From contig CALZIJ010000019.1 in assembly GCA_945787655.1 (NCBI GenBank), forward strand, positions 3,666-64,954: DNA of 61,289 nt. Reading direction: 5' to 3'. Positions 5,279-14,365 of this stretch are shown here, piece after piece; position 1 is the first letter of the stretch; each line of letters starts with the position of its first letter. This stretch comes from Nitrospiria bacterium (GTDB lineage Bacteria > Nitrospirota > Nitrospiria > SBBL01 > JAADHI01). The translations under genes and the position numbers were made by a program. The notes beneath the pieces were generated by a model. That model searched no databases and was not told the DNA's origin. It saw only the letters and a list, made by a program, of their open reading frames with translations.

Positions 5279-8173
5279 TTATGAAAGTGCTGCCGTTCTT
5301 TGTTTAATGAAGTTTTCAAAGGCTTCTTTCATATAATCCTTTGTGTTTAGAATTTCCTGGGATACTCTGGACTCATAAAGCATCTGTCCTTCTTTTATTT
5401 CTTCTTCCAGTAATTCATAGAAAGTGCCGGACTGTATGCCTTCGTCTACCTTTTTTTCATTGTAAATGACAATATCTGAAACGATAATTTTAGCAAGTCT
5501 TTTTGCTTCTTTTTCTTCCTTGCTCTCTTCGGCGAGTTCATTTGTACTTTCGTTCCCATTCCCATTCCCATTCCCATTCCCGTTTCCATTCTCATTGACT
5601 TCTTCGGTTGGAGGGGATGCTCCCATGACCGGGACGGATTCATTTTCGGAAGGCGGGACATCGGGTTCTTCTGTTTCAAGCGAGGGCGCGCTGTGTTCAT
5701 CCGTTTGAGATGGGTCATCGGATGGGGCCGAGTCTTTTTCTGGCGCTTCCGGCGGGTTTTTGGGGGCTTGTGTTTTACTCTGAATATAGTTCTCCAGGGC
5801 ATTTTCATAGAGTCCGCTGTCAAAGATTTCTTGGGGGACACGGGTGCTGAAGAGTTCACGCCCTTCGGCAATTTCTTCTTTAAGGACTTTATGAAAGGTG
5901 TTATTTTTCAAACCTTCTTCTACCTTGTCTTCATTATAGATGACAATGTCCGAGACAATAATTTTCGCGAGACGTTTTGCGTTTTTAATTTCCTCTGAAT
6001 CTTCTTGTTGAACACTTGGTGATGGGGAGGACGCTTCATCCGCTATTTCATCTTGAGGAGAGCCTTCTGCTTGCTGTGCCATCGATTCAAAAGGATCGAC
6101 GGGGCCCGTTTCGGGGACGAGGGGTTCTTCCCATTCGTCTTGTGGCTTTTCTTCATGGGGCAGGGCTTGCGGCGGCTCTGATGCTTCCGGTTCCTTCTCT
6201 ATGGTCTCAAAATGCGTCTCATTGTGTTCTAGTTCAGGCCCCTTGGAATCGTCCGGTTCATTTTCCTGTCCGCTTTCCAGTAGGCTTTCCGGTGTTTGAA
6301 CCACGGCCGCGGCTTCTTCTTCCATTTGTTTGAATACATCCTCTGGATTATCGAGCTCCGGAATGTCTGGGTTTTCCAGAAGTGGATCAGAGGAAGGGAT
6401 TTCTATGGCTTCTTCGGCAGCTTCCCCTACCGGTTCCGATGGAGGGGCTTCATTTTCAGAAAGGTCAGCGCTTGTATTCTTCTCTTCAAGCAGTCGGTCT
6501 ATCTCGTCTTCGAACACACTGCTGTCGAAATAAGCCGGGGCTTTTACTTCAAAAGTCTGACGTCCGTCCATAATTTCATCGCCTAAAATTTCGTAAATCG
6601 TGTCGGAATCAATAAGGGATTCAAACTTGTCTTCGTTTTGAACGAGTATTTCCTGAATGATATCTCTTGCGATTTCTTTTGCTATTAGCAGTGCCTCTTC
6701 ACTTTGTTCGACAATCGGTTCATCCTTGTCTCGGAATTGCGGGTTTTCCGTGGCCGGAATTTCGTTTTTTTCATCTTCCGTTTCGGTTTCAAAAGCGCTT
6801 TCAGGGAGTTGTGAAGCCACTTCTGAAGGCGCGGGATCTTCTTCGAGAACGGTCTCGTCCTCATGCTCAGGAGGTGCCTTCAAAACTGTCTCATCCGGTG
6901 CAATGCCTTCTTTTTCTTTTTTGCTCTGGATGAAATCTTCGATGGTTTGTTCGTAGATGCCAAATCCCAGGGCGGATGTGTCAATCCTGGACTCATAGAG
7001 TTTACGGCCTTCTAAAATTTCTTCTTCAAGGAGTTCACGAAATGTCCCTTGTTGGATGCCTTCTTCTGTTTTTTCCGGGTTATACAGGGCAATGTCCGAG
7101 ATGATCAGTTTAGAAAGCCTTAAGGCTTCTTTTTCGGTGTCTGATGGTTCATTTAATGCTGTCTCCGGGGAATGGGCCTCAGGGATACCGGTTTCCTCCA
7201 CGGGCGCTTCGTCCGGCGTGTCTCTTTCAGGTTTTTGAAAAACCTCAGTGGGTTTTTCAAAATCGGGGACAGAAAAGGATTCCACCTTTTGCTGTTCTGT
7301 TGTCTTGTCTGAAACATGGGCTTCCAAAGCCTGTTCAAAATACCCGGAATCATGCAAGGCGGGATGGGTTTTTGATTCAAACAATTTTTTCCCTTCCTGG
7401 ATTTCTTCTTCGAGCAACTCAAAAAATGTGCCGTTATTTTGTCCTTCTTCCACTTTGCGGTGATTGAACAGAATGATGTCGGATACGATTTTCTCAGCAT
7501 AGGCTTTGGTTTCTGAAATCTCTTCCTCAGAGGGAGGGGGAGCGGTGTGCCCGATGTTATTTTCAGAAACAGGCTCAAGCGCTGCGGGTGTTTCTTGAGA
7601 AACGGGGGTATCTTTTATCTTGAGCAGATGCTCAATTTTAGGAATAAGAGTGGTTTCAATGTGGTTTCGATCAATAAAATCATCGGCCCCGTATAATTCA
7701 GGATCATTTTTTCGATATTTTATATTTTTTTCAAACATCGATGTGACCATGATCACAGGGGTTTTTCCCAGGTCCGCATTGTTTTTAATTTGGGAAATCA
7801 ACTCGGTGCCGACCATGTCTGTAAATCCAGCATCGATCAGGGCAACTTGAGGCGGATTCAGTTTAATGGACATAAAACAGGAAATGCCGGAAGGAATGTC
7901 CATGACGTGAAAGCCCGAATTTTCCAATAGCGGTTTGACCGTCTCCCGGGTCGCTTCGCCGTCAATGCAAATAATCGCTGTTTTCTCATGAAGGTTTCTC
8001 TTCTCTTCGTTTTCAAGTATTCCCGGAGATGACGTGTCGCCGTCTTCCTTTTTTAGACTGATACAGATTTTGAGGCGCGTTTGACAATCATTGCAGACGA
8101 TATTGAAGTCATCGCTGATTTGATTCGGAAGAATTGTTATTCCTGTTTGGCAGTTTGGGCATTGCGTAACCAT
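5279..8173 (-). CDS. zinc-ribbon, receiver-domain protein with five acidic helical repeats
   Basis: A 964-residue cytoplasmic protein. Residues 1-40 form a MJ0042-type zinc ribbon (CPNC...CNDC). Residues about 65-190 are a CheY-like receiver; the likely phosphoacceptor is the Asp in VALIDAGF, but the conserved Lys-Pro near its end is replaced (DDFIDRNH), so signalling may be atypical. The rest is five copies of a 65-75-residue unit, typical form AKRLAKIIVSDIVIYN, then VEEG...TF..LL.EEI.EG..L(Y/F)ESRV, then an aromatic 'Y...ALE.(F/Y)I.SK' end. They begin at about residues 225, 350, 495, 725 and 890 and are separated by long acidic, proline-rich linkers. The third copy is the most divergent. 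A tandem Asn-Gly run lies before the last copy. A good ribosome site (AAGGAG) precedes the ATG, and a MerR-like gene sits 9 bases upstream. The linkers suggest a flexible scaffold; no enzymatic output domain is present. Confidence 0.8.
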   Translation of the reverse strand: MVTQCPNCQTGITILPNQISDDFNIVCNDCQTRLKICISLKKEDGDTSSPGILENEEKRNLHEKTAIICIDGEATRETVKPLLENSGFHVMDIPSGISCFMSIKLNPPQVALIDAGFTDMVGTELISQIKNNADLGKTPVIMVTSMFEKNIKYRKNDPELYGADDFIDRNHIETTLIPKIEHLLKIKDTPVSQETPAALEPVSENNIGHTAPPPSEEEISETKAYAEKIVSDIILFNHRKVEEGQNNGTFFELLEEEIQEGKKLFESKTHPALHDSGYFEQALEAHVSDKTTEQQKVESFSVPDFEKPTEVFQKPERDTPDEAPVEETGIPEAHSPETALNEPSDTEKEALRLSKLIISDIALYNPEKTEEGIQQGTFRELLEEEILEGRKLYESRIDTSALGFGIYEQTIEDFIQSKKEKEGIAPDETVLKAPPEHEDETVLEEDPAPSEVASQLPESAFETETEDEKNEIPATENPQFRDKDEPIVEQSEEALLIAKEIARDIIQEILVQNEDKFESLIDSDTIYEILGDEIMDGRQTFEVKAPAYFDSSVFEDEIDRLLEEKNTSADLSENEAPPSEPVGEAAEEAIEIPSSDPLLENPDIPELDNPEDVFKQMEEEAAAVVQTPESLLESGQENEPDDSKGPELEHNETHFETIEKEPEASEPPQALPHEEKPQDEWEEPLVPETGPVDPFESMAQQAEGSPQDEIADEASSPSPSVQQEDSEEIKNAKRLAKIIVSDIVIYNEDKVEEGLKNNTFHKVLKEEIAEGRELFSTRVPQEIFDSGLYENALENYIQSKTQAPKNPPEAPEKDSAPSDDPSQTDEHSAPSLETEEPDVPPSENESVPVMGASPPTEEVNENGNGNGNGNGNGNESTNELAEESKEEKEAKRLAKIIVSDIVIYNEKKVDEGIQSGTFYELLEEEIKEGQMLYESRVSQEILNTKDYMKEAFENFIKQRTAALS
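5555..5596. repeat. hexanucleotide tandem repeat (CCCATT) inside the receiver-protein gene
   Basis: Four perfect CCCATT units are followed by three variants (CCCGTT, TCCATT, CTCATT). On the coding strand they specify alternating Asn and Gly. Because the unit is six bases, gain or loss of copies by slippage would change linker length without shifting the frame. Confidence 0.85.
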
Positions 8174-8182
8174 CGTTGCTCC

Positions 8183-8518
8183 TTATAAAGGCCCCTGGCT
8201 CATTCTCGGCGGCTGGAACCCTTTATTCTCCTTCATGTTTTCCTTGTGAACTTGATCCCCGTTCTTTTGGCGCCTTAATTTTCGTACTTTCTCTGCGGCG
8301 CGGCTAACAAGGTATCCTTCATCTGTCAGGGTTTTTACTTCTTTTAAGAAACGAAGATCTTCGTGACTAAACTTTTGATATTTTTTCTTCCCATGCGGCT
8401 CCAGCCTGGGTTTGACGACTCCAATGAGAACCCAGTACTCAAGTTGCCGGTAGGAAAGGGCGAGTAATTTGCAAACTTCTTTAGGTGGATACTGTTTTGT
8501 GATGTTCATTTTTGTCAA
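8183..8518 (-). CDS. MerR-like transcriptional regulator
   Basis: A small protein of 108-111 residues with a MerR-type winged helix-turn-helix: YPPKEVCKLLALSYRQLEYWVLIGVVKPRL at about residues 10-40 (seen in pieces YPPKEVCKLLALS and QLEYWVLIG), then KFSHEDLRFLKEVKTLTDEGY. There is no long effector-binding domain, only a basic tail, so it is a minimal DNA-binding protein. Two starts are possible: TTG at 8518, with AAGGAT four bases upstream, or ATG at 8509 with no ribosome site. It lies 9 bases before the receiver-protein gene and is probably co-transcribed with it. An inverted repeat 14 bases upstream may be its own operator. Confidence 0.75.
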   Translation of the reverse strand: MTKMNITKQYPPKEVCKLLALSYRQLEYWVLIGVVKPRLEPHGKKKYQKFSHEDLRFLKEVKTLTDEGYLVSRAAEKVRKLRRQKNGDQVHKENMKENKGFQPPRMSQGPL

Positions 8519-8915: not shown

Positions 8916-9902
8916 TTAAGGTTTGGGCGTGTTCTGTAAATGGGTGAGGGCGGTCAAATGTTCCTCGACGGAGCGCGCGAGGGCTTCCAGGTGATATCCC
9001 CCTTCGAGGCAGGAAATAAGTCGTCCCCCACAATGGTCTTTCGCGAGTGAAAGCACGATTTGTGTGAGCTGCTTAAAGCCTTGTTCTGTGACATTAAGAG
9101 AAGCAAGGGGATCACTTTTATGGGCATCAAACCCGGCAGAGATCAGGATAAAGTCCGGTTGAAATGCGGCAAGGGCATCCGCCAGTTCGTTTTCAAAAAT
9201 TTGAATGATTGCTGCATCCCCCGCGCCTGCACGTAGAGGGATATTGTGTGTGAAGCCTTTTCCCCTGCCTGTGCCTTGCTCATCGCCGGACCCGGTACCG
9301 GGATAAAAAGGAAATTGATGTGTGCTGAAGTAATAGACTGAGGGGTCTTCATAAAAAATGTGCTGTGTGCCGTTACCGTGATGTACATCCCAGTCGATGA
9401 TGAAAACCTTATCAAGCTGGTGGTGTTTTTGCAGGTATCGCGCGCCAATGGCGACCTGATTAAATAAACAAAACCCCATCGCCCGGTCGGGTTCGGCATG
9501 GTGCCCCGGCGGTCTGACTGCACAGAAAGCATTGTAAAGCCGCTTTTCCATGACAGCATCGATGGCGGTTATGAGTCCTGAAACGGCCAGTTCCGCCGCC
9601 AGATATGAGCCGGGTGAGCAGGGGGTGTCCGGGTCGAAATACACCCTGCCTTGCGCGGGTGTTTTTTCTTTTACAAGTCGGCAGTACTCCGGCTGGTGTA
9701 CCTTTGAAATCCAAAGATCAAGATTTTCCGTGAGGTCCGGGGTGATGATTTGGAGCTGATTTTGTAAAGGCGTTGGTTTTCCGGAAGGGTCTTTTTGTAA
9801 AATTTTTTGGTCTAAAGTACGGAGGCGCTGTGAAGATTCGGGGTGCCCCGGTCCGGTGTCGTGTTCAAGGTATGCGGGATGGGTAATATAGCCGGTTTTC
9901 AT
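8916..9902 (-). CDS. histone deacetylase superfamily protein
   Basis: A 328-residue enzyme of the class II bacterial HDAC / acetoin-utilisation / acetylpolyamine amidohydrolase superfamily, which removes acyl groups from lysine or polyamine amines using zinc. All core motifs are present: HPESSQRL near the start, RPPGHHA at about residue 130 (catalytic His pair), DWDVHHGNGTQ at about 170 (zinc Asp and His), and SAGFDAHKSDPLA at about 255 (second zinc Asp). Length is typical. The start overlaps the stop of the upstream hydrolase as ATGA, so the two genes are coupled. The substrate is unknown; in bacteria these are often acting on acetylated polyamines or proteins. Confidence 0.9.
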   Translation of the reverse strand: MKTGYITHPAYLEHDTGPGHPESSQRLRTLDQKILQKDPSGKPTPLQNQLQIITPDLTENLDLWISKVHQPEYCRLVKEKTPAQGRVYFDPDTPCSPGSYLAAELAVSGLITAIDAVMEKRLYNAFCAVRPPGHHAEPDRAMGFCLFNQVAIGARYLQKHHQLDKVFIIDWDVHHGNGTQHIFYEDPSVYYFSTHQFPFYPGTGSGDEQGTGRGKGFTHNIPLRAGAGDAAIIQIFENELADALAAFQPDFILISAGFDAHKSDPLASLNVTEQGFKQLTQIVLSLAKDHCGGRLISCLEGGYHLEALARSVEEHLTALTHLQNTPKP

Positions 9903-10522
9903 GAGAGAAAAGGGTTTTTTGCACGCTCGATCCCGATGGTGGTTTTAGGCCCGTGCCCTGGAAAGACTGTTGTTTCATCCGGAAAAGTGAGTAAATGCTG
10001 TTTTATGGAAGTGATCAGGTCTGGATGAGACCCCTTCCAGAGGTCCGTGCGCCCCACGCTGCCTGCAAAAAGTGTATCCCCGGTAATGAGGCCGAAACCA
10101 TCGATATAAAAACTCAGGCTTCCGGGCGTGTGTCCGGGTGTGTGAAGCACATCGACGGTATGATTTCCAAAATTCAGGCGGTCTCCATTTTTTAAAAAAC
10201 GCTCCATTTTAGGTGTTTCGGGAGTGGGAAGACCGAAGAGCTCCGCCTGGGCGGCCAAGTGGTTGCAAAGAAACATGTCATCTTCGTGCAGGCAGGTTTC
10301 GCCCCCGGCGTCCTTGTGTACCGGCTGGGTGGCCCCGATATGATCAAGATGGGCATGTGTGTGTAGCAGGTAAATCGTTTTCAGCTGATGTTTGGCAAGC
10401 ACTGAGAAAATAAGATCTTCATCTCCACCCGGGTCAATGATAATACCTGAACGGGTTTCTTGACAGGCGATGATGAAGCAGTTGCAGCGAAAGGCGCCGA
10501 CCGGGAAGGTTTCAATAATCAT
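9899..10522 (-). CDS. MBL-fold hydrolase, glyoxalase II-like
   Basis: A 207-residue metallo-beta-lactamase-fold protein of the hydroxyacylglutathione hydrolase (YcbL/GloB-like) group. It has the zinc motif THAHLDH near residue 55, the third His in TPGHTPGS near 130, the bridging Asp in GDTLFAGSVGRTD near 150, and the last His in FPGHGPKT near 190. It lacks the C-terminal glutathione-binding domain of full GloB, so the thioester substrate may be different. Eight bases separate it from the upstream PP-loop gene and it overlaps the deacetylase gene by four. Confidence 0.88.
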   Translation of the reverse strand: MIIETFPVGAFRCNCFIIACQETRSGIIIDPGGDEDLIFSVLAKHQLKTIYLLHTHAHLDHIGATQPVHKDAGGETCLHEDDMFLCNHLAAQAELFGLPTPETPKMERFLKNGDRLNFGNHTVDVLHTPGHTPGSLSFYIDGFGLITGDTLFAGSVGRTDLWKGSHPDLITSIKQHLLTFPDETTVFPGHGPKTTIGIERAKNPFLS

Positions 10523-10530
10523 AATTTGCT

Positions 10531-11529
10531 TTATTGAACCACGGTTAATGTTTGTTCGTCGGTCTTTAAGGGAAAATGAACTTTAATTCGGGACAGGGTG
10601 TCTGCACGTTGGACATCAATGAAATGGTCATTAGTCAGGCCTTTTTTAGCGTATTTCGCGATCCACCTTGCGGCTTCGTCAAGGGTTTTTGCTTCGTGTT
10701 TTCTACTTAAAACAGCGATAGGGCCTGAAAACGCGGGGCGGAGAATGGTGATTTCACCCGAAGTGACGCCTTCTTTTGAAACCGCTTCGAGTTGATCATT
10801 TTCTTCCGCGTTCCGTCCGATGACCAAGTGGGCGCCGTCGGAAAGATCAACATGCCGGCCGTATCGAAGCAACTGGACGTCGAGCATCGTAAAATCTTCA
10901 TTGTTTTCGAAAAATGTGCTTAAGCGGTTTGAGAAATTGGCATCGGTTAAAAGACATCCGCCGCCGGGTGGTGTATAGAATTTCAGCCCCAGGGTGTCTG
11001 CCCGCTTTAATTGTTCGGTTCGGCTTCGTCCGGAAAGGGCCAGCAGTTTTTTCCGGTTTACCCACCCTTCCGTTTCGGGCAAAGTGGGAGGATTGTGCTT
11101 TGCCGAAAGCGGGCGAAGCACCCGCCCCCCTGTACCGCTGTCACGGTCAATAATATCCATGGCTTCCCGGCGCTGGGACATCGGCCGTTGGCCGATGACT
11201 TCTCCCGTAATGATAAAGTCCGCACCTTCTTTTTCCATCACCTGTTCAGCGATTTGGAACATGTATATTCTGCAATCGATACAGGGATTGATATTTTTGC
11301 CGTAACCGTATTTTGGATTTCGAATCAGTTCGATGTAGGCCATACCTTTATCGACGGTTCTGAGCGGTATCCCCAAGTGTTTGGCCACCGCCTCGACGTT
11401 TTCCTTGCAACCGAAGGGGCTTTCCAGGAAGAGACCAATAACCTGGATGTCCTGGTCTATAATGAGTTTGGCCGCGAGGGTGCTGTCAAGGCCGCCTGAG
11501 AGTAATGCAATGGCTTTTCTTTTTTTCAT
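10531..11529 (-). CDS. PP-loop ATPase, tRNA thiouridylase-like (MnmA/ThiI-related)
   Basis: A 332-residue protein with the N-terminal PP-loop LLSGGLDSTLAAK (residues 9-21) that binds and cleaves ATP in the adenylation of its target. A conserved PCIDCR at about residue 82 and GGGCLLTD near 190 supply cysteines typical of sulfur transfer in MnmA/ThiI/TtuA-like enzymes. The C-terminal part (about 235-320) resembles the NFACT-type RNA-binding domain seen in this subgroup. The likely role is thiolation of a tRNA uridine. Members are often annotated loosely as a thiouridylate methyltransferase. It heads the three-gene set with the hydrolase and deacetylase. Confidence 0.75.
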   Translation of the reverse strand: MKKRKAIALLSGGLDSTLAAKLIIDQDIQVIGLFLESPFGCKENVEAVAKHLGIPLRTVDKGMAYIELIRNPKYGYGKNINPCIDCRIYMFQIAEQVMEKEGADFIITGEVIGQRPMSQRREAMDIIDRDSGTGGRVLRPLSAKHNPPTLPETEGWVNRKKLLALSGRSRTEQLKRADTLGLKFYTPPGGGCLLTDANFSNRLSTFFENNEDFTMLDVQLLRYGRHVDLSDGAHLVIGRNAEENDQLEAVSKEGVTSGEITILRPAFSGPIAVLSRKHEAKTLDEAARWIAKYAKKGLTNDHFIDVQRADTLSRIKVHFPLKTDEQTLTVVQ

Positions 11530-11618: not shown

Positions 11619-12155
11619 TTAACGAAAGAGCTGGAAAATCTTGAAAATAAAATAAAAGAACGAAGCTTGAAGCGCAATAATGCTGGTCAGCCCCAGAAGC
11701 ATGGCTCTGCTCACAATCCGGAATTCCTTGAATATGGCCTGTTGAATCCTTATGAAGTTGGAAAGGATTTCTTCCGTCTCCTTCAGGCTTAAAAGTTGAT
11801 TGTCCAGTTTGCAGGTGATATTGCCATCCAGTTGAACAATACTTCGAATACAGGGTGTCGGCCTGGTCGGGTTTTCTTTTGGATCTGCGAATGTGCCGAT
11901 GAGAATGACAGCGCCGTTTTGAATGAATCCTTCTTTGAGAAGCGCAGTATAGAAAGTCCCGTTTTTTCTTCGAAGGTGGCCTCCGATTTTAAGTAAATTG
12001 AAGTAGAGATTGTCATGTGATGCGGTGGTTTTACGTTCCTGTGGTTTCGTGATTTCAGGCTGAAGGTGCAGCCCGTTTTCCAGGACCCGTGTGGGGATTT
12101 GAAATGCGATCATGCCGTCTCCGAGAAGGTTGATGGTGACCGTTTGCATCATCAT
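11619..12155 (-). CDS. unknown protein with LDGNI module and C-terminal membrane helix
   Basis: A 178-residue protein of no known family. The N-terminal half is beta-like (MMMQTVTINLLGDG, FQIPTRVLENG). At about residue 108 it has IVQLDGNITCKLDNQLL, which matches a motif in the two genes upstream, followed by a helical segment and a hydrophobic stretch near the C-terminus (AMLLGLTSIIALQASFFYFIF) that should cross or enter the membrane. The start overlaps the previous stop as ATGATG, so expression is coupled. Last gene of a three-gene unit. Confidence 0.7.
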   Translation of the reverse strand: MMMQTVTINLLGDGMIAFQIPTRVLENGLHLQPEITKPQERKTTASHDNLYFNLLKIGGHLRRKNGTFYTALLKEGFIQNGAVILIGTFADPKENPTRPTPCIRSIVQLDGNITCKLDNQLLSLKETEEILSNFIRIQQAIFKEFRIVSRAMLLGLTSIIALQASFFYFIFKIFQLFR

Positions 12156-12934
12156 GTTTTTGAAAAGAGTCCTGTCAGTGCTTTTGCGATACTCGAAATG
12201 GTTTCAACAATAAAGTGCCAGTGTTTGAGTCCGGCTTCAACATTGCCTTTATGAAAACGAAGCAGTTGGTCCGACTTTTCTCGAATTTCCCGGTCTCGGT
12301 ACAGTCTTTTGTTGTAGCGTGTGATAATGTCCCCATCGAGCTGTATAATATTCTGGGCAAAGATATACCCGTCTTTTAACTCCCAAAGCTTGCGTAGTTC
12401 GTGGTCATCCCGGTCCGCCATTTGTTCAAGTCCCTCAGGCGAGGGCTTGTGTTCGTACCAGTTATTAAAACGGGTGATGAGCCACAGGAGGCGGGATTGC
12501 GTCGTTCTCAGGCGGCTGATCTCCGCCATGATCTCATCCTGATTTGCTTTGCCTTTGATGTTGGTTTGAATGAGTTGTTGAAATACGATGAAGTCTTCTG
12601 TTTTTAATATGTCCGTTACATGGGGGTCTTCCATCAGATTTTTTAAAGTAGGGATGTTTTCTTTTTTGGTATATTCTATGCCATATTTTCGAAGGAGATT
12701 ATCTTGCTGTTTTGACCATTCATTGACCGCTGTAATTATTTTTGGAGGCGGGCTGGGATTATAATTTATTTTTTTATTGAGTATTGAAAACTGTTTCGCC
12801 CAAGCACTGATGATCTCAAAAAAAGCGATTGTTGTCCCCGGCATTTTACGCCCCGTAATGCCGTCGACAATCATAGAGTTAATTTCAAGGGTTGTGGCGT
12901 CGTTAAAAATATCCCTGATGGTTTTGTTGGCCAT
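12152..12934 (-). CDS. unknown protein with LDGDI module
   Basis: A 260-residue soluble-looking, mostly helical protein with no recognised domain. Near residue 203 it carries NIIQLDGDIITRYNKRLY, followed by LLRFHKGNVEAGLKHW and a helical end, the same order of elements as in its two neighbours. The central part is rich in charged residues. Twelve bases separate it from the upstream gene and its stop overlaps the downstream start. Confidence 0.7.
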   Translation of the reverse strand: MANKTIRDIFNDATTLEINSMIVDGITGRKMPGTTIAFFEIISAWAKQFSILNKKINYNPSPPPKIITAVNEWSKQQDNLLRKYGIEYTKKENIPTLKNLMEDPHVTDILKTEDFIVFQQLIQTNIKGKANQDEIMAEISRLRTTQSRLLWLITRFNNWYEHKPSPEGLEQMADRDDHELRKLWELKDGYIFAQNIIQLDGDIITRYNKRLYRDREIREKSDQLLRFHKGNVEAGLKHWHFIVETISSIAKALTGLFSKT

Positions 12935-12946
12935 GTCCGGGATACC

Positions 12947-13276
12947 CTAAAAAAGATCAACCAAGGATTTGGCCAGGGTTTTCAGGGTGTTGACGTTTCG
13001 CTCAATAATCTCTTCTCCCTTATTGACCTGTTCTTTATGAAACGTTGCAACTTGTTCCGGGTCGGGCAGAAATTTATTGTGGATGGTTGTCTTAATATCC
13101 CCGTCGAGCAGGTTTATCGTGCTGTGAATTTCTTCAGGCCCGTTGTGGGTTACGGTTGTTTTGATATCAAGTTCAATGGTATTGATAAAAGCCTTTTGCA
13201 GGGCACTGACAAGGCTGTCCCTGTTTCCACTTTTTATGGCCTCTTCAAATTCTTTTTTTATATTGGATTCTGCCAT
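12947..13276 (-). CDS. small unknown protein with LDGDI module
   Basis: A 109-residue protein, first gene of the three-gene unit, with GAGG-type ribosome site (AAGGAGGAAT) before the ATG. It contains a short internal duplication: DIKTTVTHNG at residue 37 and GDIKTTIHNK at residue 59, the second within INLLDGDIKTTIHNKFL. The tail (FHKEQVNKGEEI...LAKSLVDLF) resembles the tail of the 260-residue neighbour (FHKGNVEAG...IAKALTGLF). Function unknown. It could be the minimal form of the shared module. Confidence 0.68.
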   Translation of the reverse strand: MAESNIKKEFEEAIKSGNRDSLVSALQKAFINTIELDIKTTVTHNGPEEIHSTINLLDGDIKTTIHNKFLPDPEQVATFHKEQVNKGEEIIERNVNTLKTLAKSLVDLF

Positions 13277-13464: not shown

Positions 13465-13499
13465 AAAAAAAGAGGGGAGTTTAAACTCCCCTCTTTTTT
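13465..13499. terminator. bidirectional rho-independent terminator
   Basis: A near-perfect palindrome, AGAGGGGAGTTTAAACTCCCCTCT, flanked by A-run and T-run, lies 23 bases past the stop of the minus-strand gene at 13523. (The core arms are AGAGGGGAGTTT and its complement.) It should end that transcript. Confidence 0.9.
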
Positions 13500-13522: not shown

Positions 13523-14365
13523 TTACTTGGCGGCATACTCAAAATCGGCTTTCGCGGTTCCACCACCGGCAACATCAATATCCAGTGTTTTGAAGCCCAG
13601 TTTCTGATGGAAAGCTTTCAGTTTATACTTCCCAGGCGGGACTTCGTCGATGGTAAAGGTGCCATCATCGTTGACCACGGCATAATAAGGGTTTCTAACC
13701 GGGACGGCCCAGACGTTCATGTAGTTGTGCTGATCACACTCAACCTTCATGTAGGACTCGTTTTTCTTAAACCAGGTTTTTTTGACTTTGATTGTGATTT
13801 CCTGGTCTTTTTTCGGAACAGGTTTGTTGAATGTGGTTTTGGTTAAAACACCTTTCACATCGTAACCGTGCGGGTTGTGAAGGATGCCTTCAGCCGTCTT
13901 GGGATCACTGGGATCGGAATCAAGATTTTTAACTTTGATCACAGATTTTTTCCCGGTTTTTTTTGCATTCAGGACAACGGTGACCTGGCGGGAGGGGCCT
14001 TCCCCTTCAGCCACCAAGAAACGACAGCCGTCGGAGACAATCTTGGTTTCCGTTGTTTTAAAAGGTTTTCCGCTTTCAATTTTTTCAATGTAGACTACGA
14101 CGTCGCCAAGGCCGCCGCCGTTTACACGGATATCCTGGCGTTTACGAACACCGCCTTCCGCGTCGAATTTTCCGCAGAATTCTGCTTGAGGCCATTTGTT
14201 CAGCACGAATTCAACCGGTGCGGGTTGGTCTCCTTTAAAAGAGACTTTCCCGGAAATGGTACCGCCGCCGCTGACAGGTCCTTCCGCATATTTTGCGAAA
14301 ACAAGCGGTGTGGACACTAAACCCATGGCCAGTGCCAAACCGAGTACTTTAGAAGTCTTGTTCAT
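13523..14365 (-). CDS. periplasmic carboxypeptidase-regulatory/cupredoxin-like protein
   Basis: A 280-residue exported protein (signal peptide MNKTSKVLGLALAMGLVSTP, cut after VFA). The N-terminal region GGGTISGKVSFKGDQPAP is a carboxypeptidase regulatory-like beta sandwich. At about residue 210 ECDQHNYMNVW, then VRNPYYAVVNDDGTF and VPPGKYKLKAFH, match the C..H...M pattern of a methylamine-utilisation/cupredoxin-like module in which Cys, His and Met could bind copper. Similar proteins sit in the periplasm near respiratory chains, but no oxidase is next to it here. AAGGAG precedes the ATG and a strong terminator follows. Confidence 0.75.
   Translation of the reverse strand: MNKTSKVLGLALAMGLVSTPLVFAKYAEGPVSGGGTISGKVSFKGDQPAPVEFVLNKWPQAEFCGKFDAEGGVRKRQDIRVNGGGLGDVVVYIEKIESGKPFKTTETKIVSDGCRFLVAEGEGPSRQVTVVLNAKKTGKKSVIKVKNLDSDPSDPKTAEGILHNPHGYDVKGVLTKTTFNKPVPKKDQEITIKVKKTWFKKNESYMKVECDQHNYMNVWAVPVRNPYYAVVNDDGTFTIDEVPPGKYKLKAFHQKLGFKTLDIDVAGGGTAKADFEYAAK

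Follow-up and report, generated by a model that had tools for sequence, protein, structure and literature searches.

Three consecutive genes on the minus strand of the window (the whole 61,289-nucleotide stretch of DNA analyzed here, on contig C19 of a 3.04-Mb genome in 168 contigs) encode proteins, designated A, B, and C, that are related through one shared module, with paralogy between A and B and between B and C. We consider it reasonably likely, on the basis of their sequences, that the three products are paralogous subunits of a membrane-anchored heteromeric complex, which would probably act as a scaffold or tether. Gene A (12947..13276) is the first open reading frame of the operon and encodes a soluble protein of 109 amino acids. 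It is followed by gene B (12152..12934), whose soluble 260-amino-acid product carries an LE(I/V)NT strand motif, a KMP motif, a helical insert, and an LDGD module, and by gene C (11619..12155), whose 178-amino-acid product combines an LDGN module with a C-terminal hydrophobic helix. The three genes are co-directional, with 12 bases separating A from B and a 4-base overlap (gap of -4) between B and C, as a first-pass annotation of this DNA had described. The motif strings from which that annotation had proposed paralogous modules (INLLDGDIKTTIHNKFL, NIIQLDGDIITRYNKRLY, and IVQLDGNITCKLDNQLL) were likewise present in the A, B, and C reading frames, which lie on the minus strand.

A single-sequence blastp comparison of the window's own A and B, made in a small database, gave an E value of 3e-5. 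We then performed profile-profile comparison with hhalign, using 20-member A, 20-member B, and 19-member C profiles and 100 column shuffles per pair. The real scores were 46.2 for A-B (E = 6.3e-7; shuffle maximum, 19.9), 46.0 for B-C (E = 1.1e-6; shuffle maximum, 17.7), and 23.8 for A-C (E = 0.002; probability, 13%; shuffle maximum, 17.1). None of the 100 shuffles attained the real score for any pair, and reversed profiles failed. The proposal of paralogous modules is thus borne out for A-B and B-C, while A and C appear weakly related when compared directly and are also linked through B. In searches of 1198 open reading frames from all loci, the best non-self matches of each profile were members of the other two families, and the three profiles found one another ahead of nearly all of these frames; the outcome that the first-pass annotation had named as fatal to its proposal, motifs lying in unrelated known folds, did not occur. 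The shuffled and reversed controls, the top ranking of cross-family matches, and the recurrence of the relation in highly diverged lineages together make it very improbable that the LDGD likeness arose by chance from short turns in three co-transcribed proteins without common ancestry. We strongly disfavor that explanation, even though the motif is short, the A-C relation is weak on its own, and the AF2 model of B lacks the hairpin.

The shared module occupies residues 49-108 of A (12953..13132, minus strand), where a hairpin with a DGD turn leads into a long helix bearing the invariant His80; residues 188-257 of B (12164..12373, minus strand), where a hairpin with the same turn precedes a helix bearing the invariant His228 and Trp239; and residues 103-150 of C (11706..11849, minus strand), where a VQLDGN hairpin is followed by a helix. 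A module profile matched these stretches with E values of 6e-22, 6e-23, and 3e-11, respectively. Across 18 whole carrier genomes, a module-only profile matched A and B in every genome; matches to C ranged in strength, the weakest being E = 0.12 in G708. The search returned one A, one B, and one C per genome and no further protein at E < 1e-3, which indicates that these genomes use the module nowhere outside this operon. On iteration, the C profile drifted into B family-wide. The tail motifs that had been noted after the modules of A and B (FHKEQVNKG / FHKGNVEAG and AKSL / AKAL) are present, but FHK proved to be clade-specific and does not extend to the family as a whole.

The core common to the three families is a strand followed by a hairpin whose turn is [G/A]D and then by a long helix. 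In A and B this helix bears a conserved His, and B also has a helical insert. Invariant positions are L36, T40, G59, D60, H80, I90, and N94 in A; E17, K30, P32, A37, R141, R181, K182, W184, Q194, G201, D202, R206, H228, and W239 in B; and G81 and D110 in C across its family. The parts that are invariant family-wide are the [G/A]D of the turn and the His of A (20/20) and of B (20/20). A second, LE[IV]xT-like motif stands ahead of the hairpin in the majority of A and B proteins and in several C proteins. It reads LDIKT at residues 36-40 of A (13157..13171, minus strand; L36 and T40 invariant in 20/20) and LEINS at residues 16-20 of B (12875..12889, minus strand; LEVNT in most relatives), and by a strict pattern it is absent from the window's C. 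The helical insert of the window's B spans about 180 residues between this motif and the hairpin.

In A and B, the invariant turn and His might have a catalytic or metal-binding function instead of a structural one. Extended to the whole trio, this would make it an enzyme complex, an explanation that draws on the invariance of G59, D60, and H80 in A and of G201, D202, and H228 in B (20/20 each). However, A has very few other polar invariants, C keeps D110 but is without the His in several lineages, including that of the window, and no enzyme family matches; we regard an enzyme complex as quite improbable.

The membrane end that had been attributed to C was recovered in nearly all members as a C-terminal hydrophobic helix or hairpin. 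By a 19-residue Kyte-Doolittle scan, which is a rough method for membrane helices, the window's C has a predicted transmembrane segment at approximately residues 151-171 (11643..11705, minus strand), with a peak of 1.89 at residue 153 and flanking charges. By this threshold, C has one such segment in the window's clade and usually two elsewhere, A has none, and B shows only borderline segments, at the C terminus of two B proteins. Most two-helix C proteins carry 4-10 and 2-9 Lys/Arg per 20 residues on the outer sides of the helix pair and 0-3 in the loop between. This distribution, dense outside and sparse between, is consistent with a cytoplasmic location of the module side of C, as judged from the charges of the predicted helices.

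Taken as a membrane-anchored complex, the trio may be described as three elaborations of one unit. A would be nearly the bare module; in B, a helical domain would interrupt the module after its first strand, ahead of the hairpin; and C would extend the module at its C-terminal end with one or two membrane helices. Each module, built of a strand, a two-strand hairpin with the [G/A]D turn, and a long amphipathic helix, would pair with the others, C would hold the heteromeric complex on the cytoplasmic face of the inner membrane, and the insert of B might contact a partner or cargo. A scaffold or tether role is proposed because the proteins lack any catalytic or NTP-binding motif. Being adjacent and paralogous is not proof that the proteins form a complex, and we are less sure of any particular cellular process than of the complex itself. 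Given that no family or structure matches and that neighbors differ by lineage, we go no further than to propose a heteromeric scaffold or tether anchored in the membrane.

Database searches agreed with the first-pass annotation, which had recognized no family. In single-sequence and per-member scans of Pfam, NCBIfam, PHROG, PADLOC, and the PDB, the trio gave only below-threshold or isolated matches; Pfam hmmscan covered 59 A, B, and C member proteins, and NCBIfam and PADLOC scans were also run on B members. PDB profile searches with A, B, and C yielded chance-level matches only. The novelty of the modules lies in this absence from every known family (Pfam, NCBIfam, PHROGs, PADLOC, and PDB sequences), and literature searches found nothing on the locus. 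Annotation labels this cellular system "hypothetical protein" three times over, whereas the recurrence of the same trio in distant bacteria, namely Desulfobacterota-like genomes and Azospirillum, points to a real, undescribed protein system.

Two candidate identities were rejected on inspection. C1_PlyCB (PF20821), a subunit of the phage lysin PlyC, matched residues 27-62 of A with 16.1 bits against a curated cut-off of 30.5, and also matched three other A members; we attribute these matches to chance. The match ends at the DGDI turn, so that the module helix with His80 lies outside it. A tripartite pore-forming toxin was also dropped, because the proteins are much smaller and the helices of C are C-terminal anchors.

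AF2 models had a mean pLDDT of about 61. The low-confidence model of A (pLDDT 61) contains helices at residues 3-16 and 19-33, strands at 35-41, 49-55, and 60-66, and a long helix at 73-108. In this model, the order of a helix, three strands, and a long helix in a small protein would fit the alpha-beta3-alpha fold of YbaB/EbfC; unlike YbaB/EbfC, the trio has a three-gene operon and a membrane helix as extras. The best PDB match of this low-confidence model in Foldseek was 1ybx (TM 0.51/0.57, E = 0.5), which we take to be a YbaB-like protein. Although the fold search suggested YbaB/EbfC (PF02575), none of the 59 proteins matched PF02575, and when A, B, and C were compared by hhalign with YbaB proteins from the genus and from its relatives, the scores fell within the shuffle range. 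The window's genome has one YbaB match, at another site. The model of B is confident only in the insert and does not form the hairpin; its Foldseek matches to vinculin-tail helical bundles (E of 0.5 and above) were uninformative, as was a Foldseek search of viral models with A.

On the chromids of Azospirillum, the trio closely follows HTH-ParA and ParB genes and points in the same direction, an arrangement that likens it to a ParA/ParB locus. Moreover, a ParA gene, alone, stands about 1.3 kb upstream of A in L056, and dnaN- and gyrB-like frames, identified by reading, are neighbors of the trio in L059. These neighbors, together with the 1ybx match (TM 0.51, E = 0.5), raise the idea that the trio serves DNA partition or nucleoid tethering as a membrane-linked partner to ParA/ParB-type systems, with a YbaB-like alpha-beta3-alpha fold. 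Yet the trio is not homologous to ParA/ParB, no ParA/ParB domain was found in the eight window neighbors scanned or seen in most other loci, hhalign scores to YbaB are at noise level for all three proteins, and the 1ybx match depends on a low-confidence model. We hold a partition module to be a doubtful prospect. A related and equally speculative idea is a novel membrane-anchored positioning or tethering machine that might work with the neighboring ParA/ParB in Azospirillum and with unlinked partners elsewhere. Because the trio occurs in Azospirillum species, its function is testable by gene removal.

The 20 loci come from the five genomes of a single Nitrospirota genus, from several genomes belonging to the same phylum as locus L019, and from two Azospirillum chromids. 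A lies directly upstream of B in 20/20 loci and C directly follows B in 19/20, which answers the concern that the genes might rarely occur together; the order A-B-C on one strand holds in the same 19, with unrelated flanks and, in most, short or overlapping gaps. The exception is L054, in which the stretch after B (7418-8125) contains repeats and a run of N, and a C gene lies on contig C626 of the same genome. The Azospirillum copies came to light through a weak tblastn match of B in plasmids, which led to three consecutive hypothetical genes of 156, 283, and 188 amino acids; B of L037 matched the Azospirillum counterpart at 2e-17 across 95% of its length. Sequence comparison firmly supports homology across the groups, and the unit is conserved across at least two phyla, probably three. 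When plasmids were searched with A and B of Azospirillum, seven records matched, all of them from Azospirillum.

Within the genus, each of the five genomes has the trio in tandem at the same fixed locus; the trio is absent from the other 242 of the 247 genomes of the class, as well as from 294 genomes of a phylum sample. A sixth copy was found in L019 (JAUVJO010000232.1), a 5.7-kb contig whose record is titled "Deltaproteobacteria bacterium," and a profile search added two more genomes of that phylum. The trio was found in 3 of 395 genomes of one phylum, and a search among relatives of G639, one of the two added genomes, matched 11 of 194. In the A+B tree, the Nitrospirota copies form a fully supported group with L019 and L060, separate from all other copies. 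The L019 trio was placed inside the window clade with a branch support of 0.275; its presence there points either to horizontal transfer or to a contig assigned to the wrong bin.

When loci are compared pairwise, the distances obtained for A, B, and C correlate with one another at 0.81-0.91. Purifying selection acts on all three genes: most changes fall at third codon positions, and NG86 dN/dS ratios, where computable, ranged from 0.05 to 0.11 in A and B and from 0.19 to 0.26 in C; these figures are rough because dS is near or at saturation. The patchy distribution suggests that the trio spread horizontally and was later retained in the genus.

Such patchiness over distant lineages (5/247, 3/395, and 11/194 genomes), flanks that differ by lineage, and a small membrane component would also suit an accessory anti-phage or conflict system, with sensing or regulation assigned to A and B and the effector role to membrane protein C. 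We judge this unlikely, given that the locus is fixed and under purifying selection in the five genomes of the genus, the unit encodes no nuclease or NTPase partner, PADLOC matched none of the three window proteins and gave a single weak match (E = 0.023) among 20 B members, and no trio relatives were found in the phage collection, viral contigs, or PHROGs.

Neighbors, compared by reading, are syntenic around the trio only inside clades. In the window, the operon is preceded by a carboxypeptidase-regulatory-like gene (13523-14365), and between the two lies a perfect 17-bp inverted repeat (13466..13499) with A/T runs on its flanks, terminator-like in both directions. On the same strand after the operon are ThiI-like (10531-11529), metallo-beta-lactamase-fold (9899-10522), histone-deacetylase-domain (8916-9902), and MerR-type (8183-8518) genes, several of which keep their order in other genomes of the genus. 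AhpC/TSA_2-like frames lie downstream of C on the same strand in L051 (6939-7322), L052 (2647-3027), and L055 (9580-9918); the AhpC-TSA_2 domain was confirmed for L051 only, and this may be clade synteny. In L036 (164-13000), the trio is flanked by a phage-tail-like gene (Tail_P2_I), a calcineurin-like phosphoesterase (metallophosphoesterase), and a peptidoglycan-binding protein, along with a 506-amino-acid protein that has no Pfam match and looks DUF4157-type by eye. Farther along the window, on the minus strand (5279-8173), is a 964-amino-acid protein with a zinc-ribbon-like N terminus, a response-regulator receiver domain, and five copies of a repeat of about 45 residues (type AKRLAKIIVSDIVIYNEDKVEEGLKNNTFHKVLKEEIAEGRELF) joined by acidic, proline-rich linkers; a frame resembling it comes after the trio's neighbors in L021.
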